A stretch of DNA of 64,000 nt from Sulfobacillus thermosulfidooxidans (GTDB lineage: Bacteria > Bacillota > Sulfobacillia > Sulfobacillales > Sulfobacillaceae): contig NZ_LGRO01000001.1 in NCBI RefSeq assembly GCF_001280565.1, positions 62,001-126,000 on the forward strand, read 5' to 3'. Position numbers and translations under genes: made by a program. This document shows positions 7,988 to 36,082 of this stretch, in pieces; the stretch's first letter is position 1, and each line of letters opens with the position of its first letter. The notes beneath the pieces are model-generated. The model searched no databases. It had not been told where the DNA came from and was given only the letters and a program-made list of their open reading frames with translations.

Positions 7988-9528
7988 CGAATTTCCGGAA
8001 TTTGTTTGAGATCATGCACCAATTCTTCAGGGGCTGTTTGGTCTAAGGATAATATCATCAGTGCTTGGTGAGCTTTTTCATCCCGGCCTAAATGCAAATT
8101 GCCAATATTGATATTGTATTGTCCCACTAATGTTCCGACTTTACCCACAACACCAGGTGCGTCGTTGTGGACCGTCATTAGCGCGTTTTTTGGCCACGGC
8201 AAATCCATGGCAATGCCGTTGATGCGGCGCAGACGGGGAACATGATTGTCGAGGACAACCTCGGTGGTCGTTTCTGCATGTCCTTCGAGACGGAGGCTCA
8301 AAGCCGGAGCTTGGTTGGGGCCTGCTTCTTCGACCAGCAGTTTTAAGCCTTGTTCTTCAGCTTTAATCAGCGCGTTGACAGCATTGACACGACCATCTAA
8401 CTGCTCGCTCAAAACAGCGGCAATGACTGTTTGTTTGAGCCAAGGGATTGCGTTTTTGGCTATTGGTCCCTTTAAGGTCAGAACCAATGGGACCGTGAGC
8501 GTTTTATTCATTTGAGCAAAAATCCGGCCGACAACGCGGGCCCCCTCATCCAAGATGCCAAATTCGTCCGGTGTGAGAGGGGGAACAGGCACATTGACGA
8601 TATTGGGAGGAGTTTGCCCTTGCAAGGCGGCAATAACGCCTTTGGCCGTCATAACGGCCACGCCGGTCATTGCTTCTTGGGTGCTTCCCCCCAAGTGTGG
8701 AGTAAGAACCGCTCGAGGATGGCGGAATAACGGAAAATCTTTTGGTGGCGGTTCTTGACTAAAGACATCCAGGCCCACCCCTAAAAGATGTCCCATGTCC
8801 AATAATTCTGCTAGGGCTGCTTCATCAATCATGCCCCCACGGGCGACATTAACGACAATAGCACCTTTTGGCAAACGTGAAAGCAGGTCCATTCCGATTT
8901 GTGGTCCCGATTTCGGAGTGTGTAACGTTAAGATGTCAGACACTGGCATAAGTTCTTCCAGAGAATCAATGCGGGTGACATTATGTGCTTGGAAAATTTC
9001 GTCACTCACGAATGGATCATAAGCATAGACCGTCATCCGAAATCCGTGAGCAATTCTAGCCGCTTCCCGACCCACTTTGCCGAAGCCAATAATTCCGAGA
9101 CGGCGGTCATGGAGTTCTCCTCCCAAAAACTTTTTGCGGTTCCAGCCGCCTTCGCGTACATGCGCATCTCCCAAATGGATATTGCGAAGAATTGTGAGCA
9201 TGTGCCCAAAAGCTTGTTCGGCCGCTGCAATCGCATTAGCTCCGGGAGCATTAACGACGGCGATACCAAATTCCGTACAAGCTTTCAAATCGACGTTGTC
9301 AACGCCGGAACCGGCCCGGGCAACGACTTTTAGGCGAGGACGGTTCATTAGCACTTCCCGGGGCAGCCGGTGTGCACTTCGAATGATCACGGCATCATAA
9401 TTTCCGAGAATTTCAGGCAATTGTTCTTTGGGAAGGAGATCATAGGCATCGACATCCGCAACTTCGCGTAACATGTCTATGCCTTCTTGACCGAGTGTTT
9501 CTGTAATCAAAATGCGTGGACGAGTCAT
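7969..9528 (-). CDS. serA: D-3-phosphoglycerate dehydrogenase
   Basis: Catalyses the NAD-dependent oxidation of 3-phosphoglycerate, the first step of serine synthesis. The 519-residue protein is the long form. It has an N-terminal substrate domain, a Rossmann domain with GFGKVGREAARIA near residue 148, the catalytic Arg in NVARGGMIDEAAL and His in TPHLGGSTQEAM, then an intervening domain and a C-terminal ACT domain (MTVHNDAPGVVGKVGTLV) that usually binds serine. Its ATG overlaps by one base the stop of the upstream aminotransferase gene, so translation is coupled. Transcription comes from the T-box leader at 10851-11066. Confidence 0.96.
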   Translation of the reverse strand: MTRPRILITETLGQEGIDMLREVADVDAYDLLPKEQLPEILGNYDAVIIRSAHRLPREVLMNRPRLKVVARAGSGVDNVDLKACTEFGIAVVNAPGANAIAAAEQAFGHMLTILRNIHLGDAHVREGGWNRKKFLGGELHDRRLGIIGFGKVGREAARIAHGFRMTVYAYDPFVSDEIFQAHNVTRIDSLEELMPVSDILTLHTPKSGPQIGMDLLSRLPKGAIVVNVARGGMIDEAALAELLDMGHLLGVGLDVFSQEPPPKDFPLFRHPRAVLTPHLGGSTQEAMTGVAVMTAKGVIAALQGQTPPNIVNVPVPPLTPDEFGILDEGARVVGRIFAQMNKTLTVPLVLTLKGPIAKNAIPWLKQTVIAAVLSEQLDGRVNAVNALIKAEEQGLKLLVEEAGPNQAPALSLRLEGHAETTTEVVLDNHVPRLRRINGIAMDLPWPKNALMTVHNDAPGVVGKVGTLVGQYNINIGNLHLGRDEKAHQALMILSLDQTAPEELVHDLKQIPEIRQVFVF

Positions 9529-10682
9529 TATGCATGTGCCTCCTCTTCAACATTAATAGCGTTATGCCATGTCACCCAAGCTGCCTGAACTCCATCAAAG
9601 CCGCCCGGTAACAAGTGGGCTAACGTGGCTAGGCCTTCAAACAGTTGTTCCGGTAATGCCGCACCCACATGACCAATGCGAATGTAATCATGATGCCATG
9701 GTCCCATAGCACCGGCGATTTGCAATCCAAGCTTCGCGGCCTGATTGCGGAAATCTACGGGGGTTATGCCCTTGGGAGCCGCTAATGCCGTGACCGTTGG
9801 AGACGCGATGGCTTCTTCAACAGGTGGTGTCATGCCAGAAGCCTGACCAAAAGCACGGGCCATGCGACTTAAGAGTTGGTGCCGTGCTAACCGTGGCATT
9901 TCGCCTTCGGCTTCGAGAAGATTTAACGCCTCTTCCAATCCGTTCCATAAAGAGACTGCAGGGGTATAGGGAAATTGGCCATTGAGATAAGGTTGTAAGT
10001 CAAAAAACAGGCGACCTGGGCGATCTTTTAAAACCTCCTGTTTGGCGCGGGCTGACAACGCGAGAATGCCCAATCCGGGAGGGCACATGAATCCTTTTTG
10101 TGATGCGGCAACAATGACATCGACATGATCAGCCTGTATCTTTAAGGGAATAGAAGGAACACCTGAAATGCTGTCAACAATAAGTAGGGGAGCATTATTG
10201 ACTGTGCGGAGTGCTTGAGCCAGCTGTGGCACGGGATTTAATACGCCCGTGGATGTTTCATTGTGGGTCACGAGAATGGCTTTGATGTCACGTTCTTCGC
10301 TCAAGGTTTCGAGAATATGCTGCGGGTCAAAGGCTTGGCCATAAGGAACGCGAATATGGCGCACATGTACACCCATTTTTTCGGCGATTTCCATAAACCG
10401 TTCGCCAAAAGTGCCTGTGCTCACGCCAATGACTTTATCGCCGGGCAAAAAGAAATTTTGTACAGCCGCTTCCAGCGCACCTGTTCCACTGGTGGGGATA
10501 ACGGCAACGCCACCATCTGGACCCACATCAAACAGTTGTTGCAATTGGGCTAATACGTGCTCTTTGACTTTGGTGAAGACACTGCCCCGGTGATCGGACA
10601 TCGCCTGTTGCATGGCCAGATTCACACTGGGGGGAACGGGAGTGGGTCCGGGTAATAATATTTGTGGCGGGTATAACATCAA
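9528..10682 (-). CDS. Class V aminotransferase (serine/alanine–glyoxylate or phosphoserine type)
   Basis: A 384-residue PLP enzyme of the small-subunit hydrogenase-like/alanine-glyoxylate aminotransferase group. The N-terminus LLPGPTPVPPSVNLAM, the phosphate-binding TSGTGALEAAV and the PLP lysine in AASQKGFMCPPGLGIL are intact. Overlap with serA and a shared T-box argue that it makes the amino donor step of serine synthesis in place of a classical SerC, as proposed for several thermophiles; serine–glyoxylate or serine–pyruvate activity is also possible. AAGGAGG precedes the ATG by 7 nt; a second ATG follows directly. Confidence 0.85.
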   Translation of the reverse strand: MMLYPPQILLPGPTPVPPSVNLAMQQAMSDHRGSVFTKVKEHVLAQLQQLFDVGPDGGVAVIPTSGTGALEAAVQNFFLPGDKVIGVSTGTFGERFMEIAEKMGVHVRHIRVPYGQAFDPQHILETLSEERDIKAILVTHNETSTGVLNPVPQLAQALRTVNNAPLLIVDSISGVPSIPLKIQADHVDVIVAASQKGFMCPPGLGILALSARAKQEVLKDRPGRLFFDLQPYLNGQFPYTPAVSLWNGLEEALNLLEAEGEMPRLARHQLLSRMARAFGQASGMTPPVEEAIASPTVTALAAPKGITPVDFRNQAAKLGLQIAGAMGPWHHDYIRIGHVGAALPEQLFEGLATLAHLLPGGFDGVQAAWVTWHNAINVEEEAHA

Positions 10683-10850
10683 TTATTCCTCCTTGAGATT
10701 TAAGATCGTAGATTTTTTCGGTTTGTAGCTGCTGGCGTCTTAGGATTTTCGAAATAGAACAACCTAATAATTGACGTCTTGCTTGTGAGAAACACGATGC
10801 TTGTCTTGTATGATCAATGAAATAACCACTTGACCAACGATGTGACGCAA

Positions 10851-11066
10851 AACAAAAAACGCCCCTAAATCTTTAGGGACGGTAGTCACCGCGGTGCCAC
10901 CCTATTTGACAGATCAATGATCTGCCCTCTCTTTGGCTATAACGCAGCACTGCGATCAACTCATCGCTGATATCCTCCTGGGCGGAATCGGGCTCGGGCA
11001 GCTCATCGGGTTCCATCCTACCGACTTTCTAGAGAACCACCCGGCTCTTCCCATTCATTGGCTGTT
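10851..11066 (-). ncRNA. T-box riboswitch controlling the aminotransferase–serA operon
   Basis: The minus strand carries the T-box core AGGGTGGCACCGCGG (10889-10903), followed by the terminator hairpin CCCTAAA-GAT-TTAGGG (10862-10878) and a T-tract (10852-10860). Upstream, CAGATCA/TGATCTG forms the stem III hairpin and GGTTC/GGAACC closes the distal part of stem I. A serine codon AGC (11001-11003, minus strand) sits in an unpaired part of stem I and is my candidate specifier; that assignment is inference. In T-box RNAs uncharged tRNA binding favours the antiterminator, so the operon would respond to serine starvation. The following 168 nt to the gene start hold only its ribosome binding site. 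Confidence 0.92.
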
Positions 11067-11072
11067 TGTGAA

Positions 11073-11102
11073 ATTATAAACATAGTCTGGCGTGCGTGTA
11101 AA
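11073..11102 (-). promoter_or_regulatory. Sigma-A promoter of the T-box/serA operon
   Basis: On the minus strand TTTACA (11097-11102) and a perfect TATAAT (11073-11078) are separated by 18 bp. Transcription would start near 11066, right before the T-box stem I. Confidence 0.8.
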
Positions 11103-11268
11103 GACTTTTTATCAAGAAAATTTTGCCGGGCATGTTTGCACCAGATGGCTTGTCCTCGTGATGTACAATGGAAAGAAACGTTGGCTCGTCATGGACAGGG
11201 CAGGAGAAAGCCTGTTCCACGGTCGTCGACAACGTGAAAACTCAATTGAGATAAAGAGGACAGTTGCG

Positions 11269-11796
11269 ATGAAGTTAGGGTATGTTTTGTCATTAAGTGT
11301 CTTAAGTTTAGGTTTGTCAGGATGTGGATTGTTTGCTGGACCGCCCCCCCAGACAGTGCCTTCAATGGTAGTTCCTTCACCGTCCCATGCCAAAAGCCAA
11401 TGGATGACGGTGAATGAGGCAGCACACTCGCTCAGTTTAACCGTTATTGCTGGCTATCAGAGTCATGGCTTTAATTTAAATGGTACCCAAAATGGTGCCA
11501 TGTGGATTACTGTGCCCGTGCATTGGCATGTTACCGTACATTTTACTAATGATTCCGGGTTATCAAACTCTTTGGCCGTAGTACCGGGCCCGACCAGTAA
11601 TCATGTCGTATTTCCGGGGGCTTCGACAAAGGATTTAACCAATGGTATTCCCCAAGGGCAGAGCCGAGTTTTCTCTTTTACGCCTATGCGTACAGGCCAT
11701 TTTCGATTAGCAAGCTTGGTGCCAGGACACGAAGATTCGGGGATGTGGGCGCATTTTGTGGTGACGAATGGGGGCAAGCCCTCTTTGCGCTTCTAA
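11269..11796 (+). CDS. Sulfocyanin-like lipoprotein lacking two copper ligands
   Basis: A 175-residue exported lipoprotein: signal peptide with lipobox LSGC (Cys19), a proline-rich linker, then a cupredoxin-like domain. The fold resembles sulfocyanin (SoxE, PF06525), shown by HVTVHFTNDSGLSNSLAVV and the C-terminal VPGHEDSGMW. Type 1 copper in that family needs His, Cys, His, Met; here His154 and Met159 remain, but Ser149 is where Cys is expected and Asn100 where the first His is expected. It may therefore not bind blue copper. The ATG at 11269 is chosen because the signal peptide starts there and AAAGAGGAC precedes it. In family members the role is electron transfer in iron/sulfur respiration. 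Confidence 0.7.
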   Translation: MKLGYVLSLSVLSLGLSGCGLFAGPPPQTVPSMVVPSPSHAKSQWMTVNEAAHSLSLTVIAGYQSHGFNLNGTQNGAMWITVPVHWHVTVHFTNDSGLSNSLAVVPGPTSNHVVFPGASTKDLTNGIPQGQSRVFSFTPMRTGHFRLASLVPGHEDSGMWAHFVVTNGGKPSLRF

Positions 11797-11894
11797 AGAT
11801 TATATAATGCGCGCAACGTATTCCTTTTAACATACACACCGTACGCACACAACACGGAGAAAGAACTTGAACTTCAAGAAAGGATGGCCTGATT

Positions 11895-13934
11895 ATGACC
11901 AGTGCCCGAAGGGTACATGGAGTCTGTCCTCATGACTGTTATGATACATGCGGCCTCGAAATCACGGCGCAAGATAACCAGGTGATTCGCATTCAGGGAG
12001 ATCGAAATCATCCCATTACACAAGGCTTTGCCTGTTTGAAGATTAACCGGTATTCAGAACGGCTCCATCATCCCGATCGGGTACGGTATCCCTTGCGACG
12101 ATCCGGACCCAAAGGTTCAGGTAAGTTTACACGCTGCACATGGGATGAAGCCATGACGGAGATTGGCCAGCAATTACAGCATATTATTCAAAATTACGGG
12201 GGCGAAGCGGTTTTACCCTATAGTTTTTCAGGAAATATGGGGATTTTAAGTGAAGCATCTATGGACCGACGATTTTTCCATGCAATCGGGGCGAGCCGGC
12301 TTGCACGGACTATTTGCACGGCATCAGCCGATGCGGCCTGGAAATGGGTTTATGGTTCTCGCATTGGCCCTGATCCGGAAAGTATTGTCTACGCACGATT
12401 TATTATGTTATGGGGAACCAATCCGGTGGCCACCAATATCCATCAGATCCCCTTATTGGATAAGGCGGTGGAAAACGGAGCCGAGCTGGTTGTGATTGAC
12501 CCGGTAAGGACCGAAACGGCAGACCGTTATGGCTCTCATATTCGTTTAAATCCCGGAACCGATGCGGTTTTGGCCATGGGCATAGGACGCTATATGGTGG
12601 ATGAAAAACTCTATGATGCGGAGTTTGTGGGTCGTTATAGCGTGGGGCTAGAGGCCTACCGTCAATTTGTGGAACCATGGACTCTAGAGAAGACGGCGTT
12701 AGTCACCGGTATTTCTCAAGACTTAATTCAACACCTGGCCAGGAGGATGAAAAATGTTCAGCCCCTACTAATCCGAACGGGATACGGGGTTCAGCGCCAT
12801 CAATACGGAGCCTTAGCCATATGGGCGATATCTGCGCTATCCATTTTAACCGGATCATATCGTTATCCAGGCGGAGGACATTTAATGTCCAATAGCGAAA
12901 TGTTTCCCATCAATTGGGACAAACTCACGCGGCCGGATTTGCTGAAGGGAAATCCGCGGGAAATAAACATGTTGCAGTTAGGAAACGCCTTATCCCCTGC
13001 ATTGAATCCGCCCATCAAAGCGTTGATTGTGTATAATTCCAATCCGGCTGCTACCGCTCCCGATCAATCGGCGGTATTGCGAGGTCTCATGCGTGAAGAT
13101 TTATTAACCATAGTGCATGAACAGATGTTAACTGATACCGCCCGGTACGCTGACTGGGTGCTACCGGCGGCAATGTTTCCGGAAATTCTTGACGTGCACA
13201 CCTCTTATTGGCATCGTTACGTTCAATTGAATCAACCGGCCATAACCCCACCTGGTGAAGCGGTATCAAATACAGAATTTTTCCGGCGTTTGGCACAATC
13301 TGTGGGATTAGGGCGAGAATCCTGGGCATTAGATTCCGATGAAATCTTAATCAAGCAGGCGCTAGACACGGATCATCCCTGGCTTCAAGGGATTACTTGG
13401 GATTCTTTGCAAACTAAGCCGGTGCAAAAACTCCGCCTGTCTATAGAGGCTCGGCCATTCATCGACTTTGGATGGCCTAAGTCGGGACTGCGTCTTGATC
13501 CTTTACCCTTTAGCAGGAACGCGTTTAAGGAATTTGTCGGGAATATAGCTGATAATCGCTACCCTTTGTGGCTTATTACCCCGTCACGAAAAAACACAAT
13601 TAAGTCAAGCTTCGCTAATATCAACAGTCTTTTAGTGAAAGAGCCTGTGCCAACAGTCTATATGCATCCCCAGGACATGAAGATCTTTAATGTGAGCCAT
13701 GGTGAAAAAGTGGAATTATATAATGACCAGGGATCGTGTCAAATGGTTGTTCATGCCAGTGAACGGGTATCACCGGGTGTTCTCGTGAGTTATGCCGTCC
13801 GGTGGAATAACGATGGGAACGGAAAGAATGTGAATCAACTAACGAGTCAAGCGTTGTCGGATTACGGTGGAGGCTCAACTTTTTATAATACGCGGGTAAG
13901 TATGAGATGGTGTCAACAGGAGGAGTCATGCTGA
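11895..13934 (+). CDS. Molybdopterin oxidoreductase (Mo-bisPGD family) with one [4Fe-4S] cluster
   Basis: A 679-residue enzyme of the DMSO reductase superfamily. Near the N-terminus Cys11, Cys15, Cys19 and Cys47 form the C-x3-C-x3-C-x27-C binding site for a [4Fe-4S] cluster; then follow the molybdopterin domains (LWGTNPVATNIHQIPLLDKA near residues 173-192; VIDPVRTETADRYG) and a C-terminal dinucleotide-binding domain (PTVYMHPQDMKIFNVSHGEK). There is no twin-arginine signal, so it should be cytoplasmic. No electron-transfer or membrane subunit is adjacent. Its stop overlaps ftcD by 7 bp, so the two are likely co-translated. The substrate is unknown; the closest look is to soluble YyaE/BisC-like oxidoreductases. 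Confidence 0.85.
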   Translation: MTSARRVHGVCPHDCYDTCGLEITAQDNQVIRIQGDRNHPITQGFACLKINRYSERLHHPDRVRYPLRRSGPKGSGKFTRCTWDEAMTEIGQQLQHIIQNYGGEAVLPYSFSGNMGILSEASMDRRFFHAIGASRLARTICTASADAAWKWVYGSRIGPDPESIVYARFIMLWGTNPVATNIHQIPLLDKAVENGAELVVIDPVRTETADRYGSHIRLNPGTDAVLAMGIGRYMVDEKLYDAEFVGRYSVGLEAYRQFVEPWTLEKTALVTGISQDLIQHLARRMKNVQPLLIRTGYGVQRHQYGALAIWAISALSILTGSYRYPGGGHLMSNSEMFPINWDKLTRPDLLKGNPREINMLQLGNALSPALNPPIKALIVYNSNPAATAPDQSAVLRGLMREDLLTIVHEQMLTDTARYADWVLPAAMFPEILDVHTSYWHRYVQLNQPAITPPGEAVSNTEFFRRLAQSVGLGRESWALDSDEILIKQALDTDHPWLQGITWDSLQTKPVQKLRLSIEARPFIDFGWPKSGLRLDPLPFSRNAFKEFVGNIADNRYPLWLITPSRKNTIKSSFANINSLLVKEPVPTVYMHPQDMKIFNVSHGEKVELYNDQGSCQMVVHASERVSPGVLVSYAVRWNNDGNGKNVNQLTSQALSDYGGGSTFYNTRVSMRWCQQEESC

Positions 13935-14824
13935 TAGAATCGGTCCCAAATTTTTCTGAAGGACGTCGTCCTGAGGTGATGGCGGCCATAGCCGAGGCGG
14001 CGCGGATTGATGGGGTGAAAGTTTTAGGCATGGAGGGAGATCCCGATCATAACCGTTCCGTGCTTACGGTGGTTGGAGAACCCCAGGCGCTTGTTGAGGC
14101 GGTCTTTCGTGCGGCCCAAGTGGCCGTAAGTCACATAAATTTGCAACATCATCACGGAACCCATCCTCGTATGGGGGCCATTGACGTCGTGCCCTTTATT
14201 CCTTTGCAAGATGCTACCATGGAGGATGCAATAAGTACCGCACGAAAATTGGGGCACCTGTTTGCCCAAGAACTTAATATCCCAGTTTATTTATACGAAC
14301 AGGCCGCTACAAAACCGGAGAGAAAGAATTTAGCTGACGTGCGCCGAGGCCAATTCGAAGGGTTATCACGTCGTATGGTCAATGACCCGCCTGACTTTGG
14401 TCCAGCACATCCGCATCCTACGGCTGGCGCGAGTGCCATCGGAGCGAGACTTCCGCTCATTGCTTTTAACGTGTTTTTAACGACCACCAATATGTCAGTG
14501 GCTAAGCATGTGGCCCGAGCTGTGCGCGGTTCGAGTGGGGGATTGGTCGGGATTAAAGCCCTGGCGATGAATACGGTCAGCCATGGACAAGTGCAGGTGT
14601 CATTAAATTTAGTGGATTATCCCAAAACCCCTTTGCCTAGAGTCTTAGAGATGATTCGGCAAGAAGCTATGCGCTATGGCGTCAGCATATCCCATACTGA
14701 GCTGGTTGGATTTATGCCTGCACAAGCCGTACTCGATACGGTACGGTATTATTTACAACAACCCGAGTTACGCTTTGACCAGATATTAGAATGGGCCATC
14801 ATGAAGGATTCTTCGCTCAAATAG
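13928..14824 (+). CDS. ftcD: Glutamate formimidoyltransferase
   Basis: Transfers the formimino (or formyl) group of N-formimino-L-glutamate to tetrahydrofolate. The 298-residue protein contains only the transferase domains (N-terminal MLIESVPNFSEGR; HHHGTHPRMGAIDVVPFIPL near residues 79-98; PHPTAGASAIGARLPLIAFN near residues 163-182) and no fused cyclodeaminase. The ATG at 13928 is preceded by CAGGAGG and overlaps the stop of the Mo-enzyme gene. No histidine-degradation (hut) genes are near, so a folate one-carbon role outside histidine catabolism is possible. The family call is secure. Confidence 0.92.
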   Translation: MLIESVPNFSEGRRPEVMAAIAEAARIDGVKVLGMEGDPDHNRSVLTVVGEPQALVEAVFRAAQVAVSHINLQHHHGTHPRMGAIDVVPFIPLQDATMEDAISTARKLGHLFAQELNIPVYLYEQAATKPERKNLADVRRGQFEGLSRRMVNDPPDFGPAHPHPTAGASAIGARLPLIAFNVFLTTTNMSVAKHVARAVRGSSGGLVGIKALAMNTVSHGQVQVSLNLVDYPKTPLPRVLEMIRQEAMRYGVSISHTELVGFMPAQAVLDTVRYYLQQPELRFDQILEWAIMKDSSLK

Positions 14825-18002: not shown

Positions 18003-18257
18003 GTGGGCATTTTGGAAGAAAACCGTCGCGTGATAGTGCGTTTGCCCCATCATTTGGTGGACGCATTAGATAAGATGGCGGACGGAGAAGGACGTCATCG
18101 AAGCGAAGTGATTCGCGAAAGCGTCGAGTTTTATCTTGCAGAACAGCGTAAGCAGCAACTCCGGCAGGAACTGATTCAAGGTTATCAGGAACTTGGCTCG
18201 CTCAACGCGGCCCTCGCGGAAGAACACTGGGAATACGCCGGATATTCTAGGGAGTAA
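18003..18257 (+). CDS. mazE: MazE-type antitoxin, ribbon-helix-helix protein
   Basis: An 84-residue ribbon-helix-helix protein of the CopG/EndoAI type. The N-terminal NRRVIVRLPHHLVDALDKMA and the RSEVIRESVEFYL helix (residues 32-45) are the DNA-binding fold; the C-terminal tail (LGSLNAALAEEHWEYA) resembles the toxin-blocking segment of EndoAI. It is 3 bp upstream of the MazF gene and downstream of alr, the same order as ndoAI–ndoA in Bacillus. Autorepression of the promoter at 17953 is expected from the family. Confidence 0.9.
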   Translation: MGILEENRRVIVRLPHHLVDALDKMADGEGRHRSEVIRESVEFYLAEQRKQQLRQELIQGYQELGSLNAALAEEHWEYAGYSRE

Positions 18258-18260
18258 TCG

Positions 18261-18626
18261 GTGGCAACCTCAGACATTGTCGTGAAACGTGGTGACATTT
18301 TTTTTGCAGATCTCTCTCCTGTAGTAGGATCGGAGCAAGGCGGCATACGTCCTGTGCTAATCCTGCAAAATGATATCGGTAACCGGTATAGTCCAACAAC
18401 CATAATTTGTGCGGTTACCTCACAGGTTTTTAAGACACGGTTACCGATTCACGTGGATCTGAAAGCTGAGGAATCTAATCTCGACCGGGATTCGGTCATC
18501 TTGTTAGAACAGATTCGAACGATTGATAAACGCCGACTAAAAGAGCGCATTGCGCATTTAAGTCCTGAAGTGATGAACCGAGTCAATCAAGCCATCGTCA
18601 TAAGTTTAGGCTTGACCGATTTGTAA
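18261..18626 (+). CDS. mazF: MazF/EndoA endoribonuclease toxin
   Basis: A sequence-specific mRNA interferase of the PemK/MazF family, 121 residues. It shows KRGDIFFADLSPVVGSEQGGI near the N-terminus (catalytic arginine and substrate loop regions), RPVLILQNDIGNRYSPTTI and the C-terminal VILLEQIRTIDKRRL. The GTG start is 3 bp after the antitoxin stop. It is close in length and motifs to chromosomal EndoA of Bacillus, so a housekeeping stress role is likely. Recognition sequence cannot be read from the protein. Confidence 0.94.
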   Translation: MATSDIVVKRGDIFFADLSPVVGSEQGGIRPVLILQNDIGNRYSPTTIICAVTSQVFKTRLPIHVDLKAEESNLDRDSVILLEQIRTIDKRRLKERIAHLSPEVMNRVNQAIVISLGLTDL

Positions 18627-34792: not shown

Positions 34793-36082
34793 TTGGCAAG
34801 GCTCGTTATTCAAGGGCGTTATCCTCTAACTGGGGAAGTCAGTGTGGAAGGGTCTAAGAACAGTGCATTACCGATCATTACGGCGGCGGCGCTCGCCGCC
34901 GAAGGAACCTCGGTCCTGGAAAATGTGCCCCGTTACACGGACATCATGGATTTATGCCAAATTTTGCGCGAATTGGGCGCAGAGGTCGAATGGATTGGAG
35001 AAAGCCGGTTAAAAATTACGGCACGCAGTTTATCCAATTACCATGCGCCCTATGAATTGGCGAAAAAATTGCGGGGCTCGACATATGTCGTCGGATTATT
35101 GCTCGCACGTTTAAAGCAAGCCGATGTAGCCTTTCCAGGAGGCTGTCAAATTGGCTCGAGACCTGTAAATTTTCATGTACAAGGGTTTCAGGCTCTTGGG
35201 GCGACAATGTGGCTAGAACACGGATCGATTCACGGCAAAGTCGAAAACCGGCTAGTAGGAACCCGGATTTATATTGAACGGGCTTCCTTTGGTACCACGA
35301 TTAACCTCATGATTGCGGCCAGTTTGGCTGAAGGAACTACGACGTTGGAAAACGCGGCGATGGAACCCGAAATTGTTGACTTGGCCAATTTTCTGAATGC
35401 CATGGGCGCGAAAGTCCGGGGAGCGGGAACGAATTTAATCCGCATCGAAGGCGTTGACGTATTACATGGAGCGCATCACGAAATTATTCCCGATCGCCTA
35501 GAGGCCGGCACCTACCTGATTGCGGCGGGCGTGACTGGTGGGGTTGTTACGGTCACCAATGTAATCCCCGAGCACCTCCGCACCGTTTTGCTCAAACTGG
35601 AGCAAGCTGGGGCTGAAATTGAGGAGGATATGGATTGGATCCGGATCGTGGTGAACCGGCGCTTACAATCCGTAGATATCGAAACCTTGCCTCATCCTGG
35701 TTTCCCGACCGATTTGCATCCGCAAATGGTGAGTTTATTAAGCTTGGCTGATGGTGTGGCCGTTGTCCAAGAAACCGTGTTTGAAAACCGTTTTGGCTAT
35801 GCTCATGATTTAGTGCGTCTCGGCGCCGATATCAAACTCGAACGGGAAACAGCCATTGTTCGCGGGGTTGAGCAACTGACTGGGGCCCCCGTGCAGGCCC
35901 AGGATATTCGGGGTGGTGCTGCCCTGGTGCTGGCAGGATTAGGAGCCTTGGGAACAACGATAGTTGAAGGGGTGGAATATATCGATCGGGGTTATCATGC
36001 GCTCGAACAAAAATTAAGTTCCTTAGGCGCAAAAATCTATCGTGAAGATGAGAATAGCGGCAAATATCCAAAAATGTTGTGA
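34793..36082 (+). CDS. murA: UDP-N-acetylglucosamine 1-carboxyvinyltransferase
   Basis: Transfers enolpyruvate from PEP to UDP-GlcNAc, the committed step of peptidoglycan synthesis. The 429-residue protein has Lys22-Asn23 at the substrate site, Arg94 in KLRGSTYVVG and the catalytic cysteine Cys118 in FPGGCQIGSRPV, the residue attacked by fosfomycin in sensitive enzymes. The TTG start follows AAAGGCGG. It is 30 bp after guaB. The 229 bp after it hold no gene that I can support. Confidence 0.96.
   Translation: MARLVIQGRYPLTGEVSVEGSKNSALPIITAAALAAEGTSVLENVPRYTDIMDLCQILRELGAEVEWIGESRLKITARSLSNYHAPYELAKKLRGSTYVVGLLLARLKQADVAFPGGCQIGSRPVNFHVQGFQALGATMWLEHGSIHGKVENRLVGTRIYIERASFGTTINLMIAASLAEGTTTLENAAMEPEIVDLANFLNAMGAKVRGAGTNLIRIEGVDVLHGAHHEIIPDRLEAGTYLIAAGVTGGVVTVTNVIPEHLRTVLLKLEQAGAEIEEDMDWIRIVVNRRLQSVDIETLPHPGFPTDLHPQMVSLLSLADGVAVVQETVFENRFGYAHDLVRLGADIKLERETAIVRGVEQLTGAPVQAQDIRGGAALVLAGLGALGTTIVEGVEYIDRGYHALEQKLSSLGAKIYREDENSGKYPKML

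Follow-up and report, generated by a model that had tools for sequence, protein, structure and literature searches.

Sulfobacillus species are acid-loving, iron-oxidising bacteria that are used in bioleaching. Their route of iron oxidation has been described as unresolved (PMC6803676), and sulfocyanin (SoxE) has been proposed as an electron carrier of the genus on the grounds of domain annotation and transcript level (PMC4062416; PMC6315122). Five soxE genes are given for S. thermosulfidooxidans (PMC6315122) and three annotated sulfocyanins for S. thermotolerans Kr1 (PMC6803676); the published iron-oxidation models count "sulfocyanins" regardless of their ligands. What those ligands should be is indicated by rusticyanin, for which His85, Cys138, His143 and Met148 are described (PMC10654088). 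A search of the open-access literature at the level of titles and abstract openings turned up no report of ligand loss in Sulfobacillus sulfocyanins.

The window referred to below is a stretch of 64,000 nucleotides from S. thermosulfidooxidans (contig NZ_LGRO01000001.1, positions 62,001 to 126,000, forward strand). It encodes a protein of this family in which two of the four ligand places have been refilled.

A sulfocyanin-like lipoprotein with two ligands replaced

The gene and the codons that matter for the argument are these:

11269-11796, plus strand: SoxE-domain sulfocyanin-like lipoprotein of 175 aa, with N/S/H/M at the ligand places (PF06525, genus orthologues, alignment)
11323-11325, plus strand: codon of Cys19 in the lipobox LSGCG, invariant, the sole Cys of the protein
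11386-11388, plus strand: codon of His40, invariant in 7 orthologues and found in 0 of 17 intact relatives (alignment)
11566-11568, plus strand: codon of Asn100 (AAC) at the place of the first ligand His; Asn in 7/7 orthologues, His in 17/17 intact relatives
11713-11715, plus strand: codon of Ser149 (AGC) at the place of the ligand Cys; Ser in 7/7 orthologues, Cys in 17/17 intact relatives
11728-11730, plus strand: codon of His154, the second ligand His, retained (alignment)
11743-11745, plus strand: codon of Met159, the axial Met, retained (alignment)

The reading frame runs from an ATG at 11269 to a stop codon ending at 11796. An alternative in-frame GTG at 11092 would yield 234 aa; the start at 11269 is preferred because of the lipobox, which occupies residues 16-20. 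In all 7 orthologues Cys19 and the residues flanking it are unchanged; lipidation is predicted, and the protein would accordingly be exported and lipid-anchored. Its residues 57-167 match the SoxE family PF06525 (E 5.9e-17; 62 bits, the cut-off being 21), so that the original prediction of a sulfocyanin-family lipoprotein stands on both profile and lipobox. The match does not extend to the narrower models: the sulfocyanin equivalog TIGR03094 gives 62.8 bits against a cut-off of 168.4, and the rusticyanin model TIGR03095 gives 18.3 against 146.7.

In an alignment of 53 SoxE-family sequences, 17 of which have His, Cys, His and Met at the four type-1 copper ligand places, the window protein presents Asn100, Ser149, His154 and Met159. 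The loop LASLVPGHEDSGMW places S149, H154 and M159 where Cys, His and Met belong, and N100 falls at the place of the first His. The spacing S149-x4-H154-x4-M159 is identical to C-x4-H-x4-M and equal to that of the loop ligands described for rusticyanin (PMC10654088). The alignment thus agrees with the original prediction that two copper ligands have been lost and two kept. That prediction would have fallen had conserved Cys and His turned up elsewhere in the protein: there is no Cys beyond the lipobox, the domain is free of Cys in all 7 orthologues, and the one additional invariant His, His40, lies before the barrel. Since its sole Cys is that of the lipobox, the window protein cannot form a normal blue-copper site; with the type-1 site lost, it should not transport electrons. 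Might it still be an electron carrier, holding copper in a different geometry? The retained fold and two of the four ligands speak for that reading, which is very improbable nonetheless, the thiolate and one imidazole being missing in 7/7 orthologues.

Orthologues and selection

Syntenic orthologues occur in seven of the eight Sulfobacillus genomes, that of the window included (the clear ones at 57-95% identity); the genome lacking one, G002, is 61% complete. A search of genome contigs with an alignment as query returned 6 loci, 5 of them orthologues, while the same contigs gave no match to a single protein used as query. The sixth locus (L074) was rejected as an orthologue, only 23 residues of the signal region matching.

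Whether relatives share the Asn and the Ser was a question that came with the prediction. They do: N/S/H/M is found in all 7 orthologues, from 7 genomes, which is more than chance would give. The two replaced places are encoded by synonymous variants (AAC/AAT for Asn100, AGC/AGT for Ser149). The Nei-Gojobori dN/dS ratio is 0.035 for the closest pair (G000/G006); 8 further pairs give 0.10-0.21, and the remaining 12 of the 21 are saturated at synonymous sites. The gene is under purifying selection. Because 69 of 156 positions are invariant across the 7 orthologues, the invariance of N100 and S149 taken by itself is weak evidence of selection on those two residues. That the ligand change is kept by relatives suggests a protein in use, and not as an electron carrier.

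A decaying pseudogene or a sequencing error is hardly credible. Nothing besides the ligand loss itself was found to suggest it, while the same residues recur in 7 genomes from several sources, and the frame is open in 7/7; with the dN/dS of 0.035 for the closest pair, the conserved orthologues rule out artefact and pseudogene for practical purposes.

Predicted fold and the question of another metal

An AlphaFold2 model built on six sequences is of modest quality (mean pLDDT 66, pTM 0.64, 54 of 175 residues under 50). Its best PDB matches in Foldseek are auracyanin (6kol, E 3.3e-7) and rusticyanin (2cak, E 5.2e-7), and VIA-align places it with a multicopper oxidase (3gdc, Z 13.0) and rusticyanin (1e30, Z 11.8, rmsd 3.2 over 119 residues). 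Since it aligns with solved cupredoxins, the barrel appears to be kept, as the original prediction of a cupredoxin had supposed. As a single query sequence, the protein has no significant match among solved structures (best E 0.22), and the structures listed include no sulfocyanin chain.

At E about 1e-5 the structural matches further include CupA, a Cu(I) chaperone of S. pneumoniae (4f2e), and a B. anthracis cupredoxin with zinc or copper bound (4hcg, 4hcf), all of them general fold matches. These bear on the main rival explanation: that Cu(I), Cu(II) or Zn is bound by His154 and Met159 with help from His40 or other residues, and that in an acid habitat rich in metals the protein serves to store, sense or chaperone copper. 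The invariance of His154 and Met159 in 7/7 orthologues, and of a His40 that is absent from that column in 17/17 intact relatives, counts in its favour. Against this, of the former ligands only two are left, with no thiolate between them; model confidence is low in the stretch that contains His40; the ligand His has been lost in other ligand-less groups as well; and no copper-handling gene was seen among the neighbours of the window protein and its orthologues. We consider this explanation unlikely, if worth keeping in view.

What remains is the reading that we prefer: the window protein is probably a redox-inactive, cupredoxin-fold envelope lipoprotein, derived from a sulfocyanin, without a type-1 copper site and most likely retained as a partner in binding, docking or assembly. 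It would sit at the outer face of the membrane (the most likely arrangement) with the sulfocyanin surface preserved and the redox centre gone, and its use would be binding, whether in docking, in assembly or in holding a ligand of its own. The absence of copper and the role with a protein partner are both things that we infer. Three options had been offered at the outset (another metal, another geometry, a structural or sensory partner), and of these a structural or binding role without copper is the best fit. One point against the preferred reading is that a purely structural protein would not need His154 and Met159, which are kept in 7/7; that His has also been lost in two other ligand-less groups.

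The SoxE family of Sulfobacillus and its relatives

How unusual is such a protein? The 53 SoxE-family sequences, 34 from the genus and 19 from elsewhere, were classified by their four ligand places. The 34 comprise N/S/H/M (7), N/S/Q/M (7), a set of E-types (15: E/D/D/L 7, E/N/N/Q 5, E/D/D/V 2, E/D/G/I 1) and H/C/H/M (5), so that the full set of four ligands survives in only 5 of the 34. The 19 others comprise 12 intact, 2 H/S/D/L, 1 N/S/Q/M (L045), 1 E/D/A/I and 3 weak matches. L045 comes from a genome that is 63% complete (G032) and is identical to L028 of another genus, which may reflect a binning error. In the domain columns counted, the H/S/D/L sequences have one Cys each and the other ligand-less groups none.

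(A technical note on the sample: the genus gave 36 matches to PF06525, two of which are outside the 34, namely a MurA homologue and a rusticyanin-like protein with an intact C-x4-H-x4-M, both of G007. The MurA homologue, 83% identical to a MurA-like ORF of the window, reaches 26.1 bits and passes the Pfam cut-off of 21 as a chance match; the SoxE match at 35264-35539 of the window, within that ORF (34793-36082), was likewise rejected as chance. The weak matches L049, L050 and L051 are in the 53-row alignment and omitted from the 50-row tree. Outside the alignment classification stand L048, L125, L123 (an E-type relative, in G024) and L082; L048 and L125 contain internal stop codons and appear to be disrupted relatives of the H/S/D/L group.)

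The genome of the window has one intact sulfocyanin (L002, H/C/H/M) and four ligand-less SoxE proteins besides the window protein. The second, intact sulfocyanin that the original prediction proposed to look for is therefore present, and the copper function is held elsewhere. Not every genome is so equipped: the searches made found no intact SoxE in G001 (98% complete) or G004 (96%); G004 has an intact rusticyanin-like protein. Among the family's 26 other genomes, the best homologue is an intact protein (L039 of G009, H/C/H/M, 45% identity, E 2.1e-35), encoded near a gene for cytochrome oxidase subunit I. When 398 genomes of the phylum were scanned with a profile built from the 7 orthologues, 7 genomes gave a match at E 1e-5. 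The matches examined outside the genus are intact (L076, L077, L083 and L085 by alignment, L078 and L082 by eye), and none among them is of the N/S/H/M kind.

In a tree of 50 sequences with the four ligand columns masked, N/S/H/M stands apart from N/S/Q/M, which groups with an intact clade (support 99/96). Forcing the two into one clade costs 20.9 log units and is rejected (p-AU 0.005); the same Asn and Ser replacements therefore arose at least twice. A single clade of all ligand-less rows is also rejected (p-AU 0.012), while N/S/H/M forced together with H/S/D/L is not (p-AU 0.43). The fewest changes between intact and lost on the tree are three. The spread of the intact state and the known function of the family suggest that it is the older one.

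Several other arrangements of the domain came to light. In the N/S/Q/M group it forms the last part of a membrane protein some 560-580 aa long; the representative in the genome of the window (562 aa, L062:7678-9366) has 7 relatives, and its membrane part resembles a separate protein of about 300 aa encoded beside a cytochrome c-SoxE fusion in L141, L142 and L143. In that fusion a cytochrome c domain is joined to an intact SoxE (L141:3648-4505, L142:3389-4246, L143:3037-3897; Pfam run on L141). By eye, an intact SoxE also ends an apparent cytochrome b protein behind a Rieske-like ORF (L077:385-1932, G240). The H/S/D/L proteins (L053 and L054, of G029 and G030) make a further ligand-altered SoxE group, and a second rusticyanin-like group (L159, L160, L162, L157, L158) appears by eye to keep His and Cys and to show neither a second His nor Met in the loop.

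Gene surroundings

Three neighbours of the lipoprotein gene need to be named:

9528-10682, minus strand: class-V aminotransferase (PF00266), divergent neighbour, conserved in 7/7
11895-13934, plus strand: molybdopterin oxidoreductase with Fe4S4 domain (PF00384, PF01568, PF04879), directly downstream in 7/7
13928-14824, plus strand: glutamate formimidoyltransferase FtcD (TIGR02024, 352 bits, over cut-off), next in the run

The gene order serA, class-V aminotransferase, lipoprotein, molybdopterin oxidoreductase, ftcD, acpS is common to the window and the 6 other genomes, with an additional ORF between aminotransferase and lipoprotein at L055 and L057. No oxidase or cytochrome gene was seen among the neighbours, in about 9 kb round the 6 other orthologues and at 4-20 kb of the window. 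The gene's own surroundings thus lend no support to the earlier suggestion of a partner in the respiratory chain, which draws indirect support from ligand-less paralogues that do lie beside cytochrome oxidase genes (see below).

Adjacency invites the proposal that the lipoprotein is an accessory of the molybdenum oxidoreductase and that the two genes form one transcription unit. They are adjacent and co-oriented in 7/7, separated by 11-98 bases according to genome and choice of start codon, and three genomes of other genera (G015, G029, G030) carry the intact cytochrome c-SoxE fusion 3-5 kb from the same oxidoreductase. That fusion lies elsewhere in the neighbourhood, however, and does not adjoin the oxidoreductase. 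At E 1e-60, 25 of the family's 34 genomes encode the enzyme; 7 encode the lipoprotein type, so that 18 of the 25 have the oxidoreductase without it. In 12 neighbourhoods taken outside the genus, no SoxE gene stands between oxidoreductase and aminotransferase, while L141, L142 and L143 have the intact fusion gene a few kb away. Moreover, Pfam finds no export signal in the oxidoreductase, and lipoprotein and enzyme are therefore probably on opposite sides of the membrane. The accessory role is doubtful on this evidence; a functional link between the two is possible but weak, the neighbouring enzyme being probably cytoplasmic and offering the window protein no obvious partner.

Some further features of the surroundings may be recorded. 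The oxidoreductase and ftcD genes (window 11895-14824; L141-L151) remain paired in much of the family, and an amidohydrolase gene often comes next (assigned by Pfam in L141, by eye in the others). Upstream of the aminotransferase gene, on the minus strand at 10860-10905, a T-box-like AGGGTGGCACCGCGG precedes a terminator-like stretch; it does not reach the Rfam gathering score, nor does anything else in 9000-14500 of the window. At 18003-18626 a gene for a CopG-type (RHH) protein is followed by one for a PemK/MazF-like toxin, a type II toxin-antitoxin pair.

Oxidase-linked paralogues and the sulfocyanin model

At two other loci of the genome (L063:6160-11206 and L064:1693-6392), the gene for an E-type SoxE lipoprotein immediately precedes those for a Tat-signal protein, CoxII, CoxI and CoxIII. 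The gap after the lipoprotein gene is 425 bases at L063 (a set identified by Pfam) and about 34 at L064; by eye, CoxII has a CuA motif and the Tat protein a C-x6-H-x4-M such as an intact blue-copper site might have. The same order occurs in G006 and G007. These ligand-less paralogues being conserved and placed beside oxidase genes, SoxE domains without ligands are evidently kept in the genus.

Published transcript work may touch these loci. For S. thermosulfidooxidans, Sulth_0449 (subunit III), 0450 (I), 0451 (II) and 0453 ("Sulfocyanin (SoxE)") are listed, and the Sulth_0453 transcript goes down by 3.63 log2 units in the presence of a stronger iron oxidiser (PMC6315122). To judge by the published gene order (CoxIII, CoxI, CoxII, one gene, SoxE) and a rough position in G006, Sulth_0453 would be the ligand-less E-type. 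Sulth_2749 may correspond to either member, intact or degenerate, of an adjacent pair (L023, L033). A protein search of S. thermotolerans Kr1 found three SoxE proteins (N/S/H/M, intact and E/D/D/V), a figure comparable by number alone with the three annotated.

If 29 of the 34 classified SoxE proteins cannot form a blue-copper site, then counts of "sulfocyanin" genes, or changes in their transcripts, do not show electron flow. One may go further, as a tentative proposal with a real chance of being right: sulfocyanins may repeatedly have become redox-dead scaffolds in Sulfobacillus, the window protein representing one branch and the oxidase-upstream proteins (apparently including Sulth_0453, by gene order) another. 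Most of the proteins behind the sulfocyanin model of iron oxidation might then be docking or assembly subunits, with electrons passing through other copper proteins or cytochromes. Whatever the fate of that proposal, the SoxE set is a natural series in which the fold is retained and the metal repeatedly lost, and it is open to simple spectroscopy.

Comparison with known systems

With the sulfocyanins (SoxE) of Sulfolobus and Ferroplasma the window protein shares the PF06525 match, the C-x4-H-x4-M spacing of the loop and the cupredoxin fold. It differs from them in having Asn for the first His and Ser for the Cys, in a TIGR03094 score below the cut-off, in bearing an N-terminal lipobox, and in the position of its gene, which is not beside oxidase genes. 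The intact relatives L002 (own genome) and L039 (G009) are 41% and 45% identical to it over the matched part; unlike it, they keep H/C/H/M, and L039 is encoded beside the gene for cytochrome oxidase subunit I. The ligand-less paralogues, that is, the N/S/Q/M membrane fusions and the E/D/D/L-like lipoproteins by cox genes, share its domain family and the lack of a domain Cys; they have lost more ligands and form separate groups in the ligand-masked tree. Rusticyanin (TIGR03095) and auracyanin have the fold in common with it, and those proteins bind copper.

Cupredoxin-type proteins that keep the fold without copper exist outside the sulfocyanins, among them CyoA of quinol oxidases and the early-nodulin-like proteins of plants. 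The accounts of SufI/FtsP (PMC2661564) and of the insect protein MCORP (PMC4203857) describe, in families other than sulfocyanin, the same outcome as is seen here: a cupredoxin-type fold retained after its copper ligands have gone.
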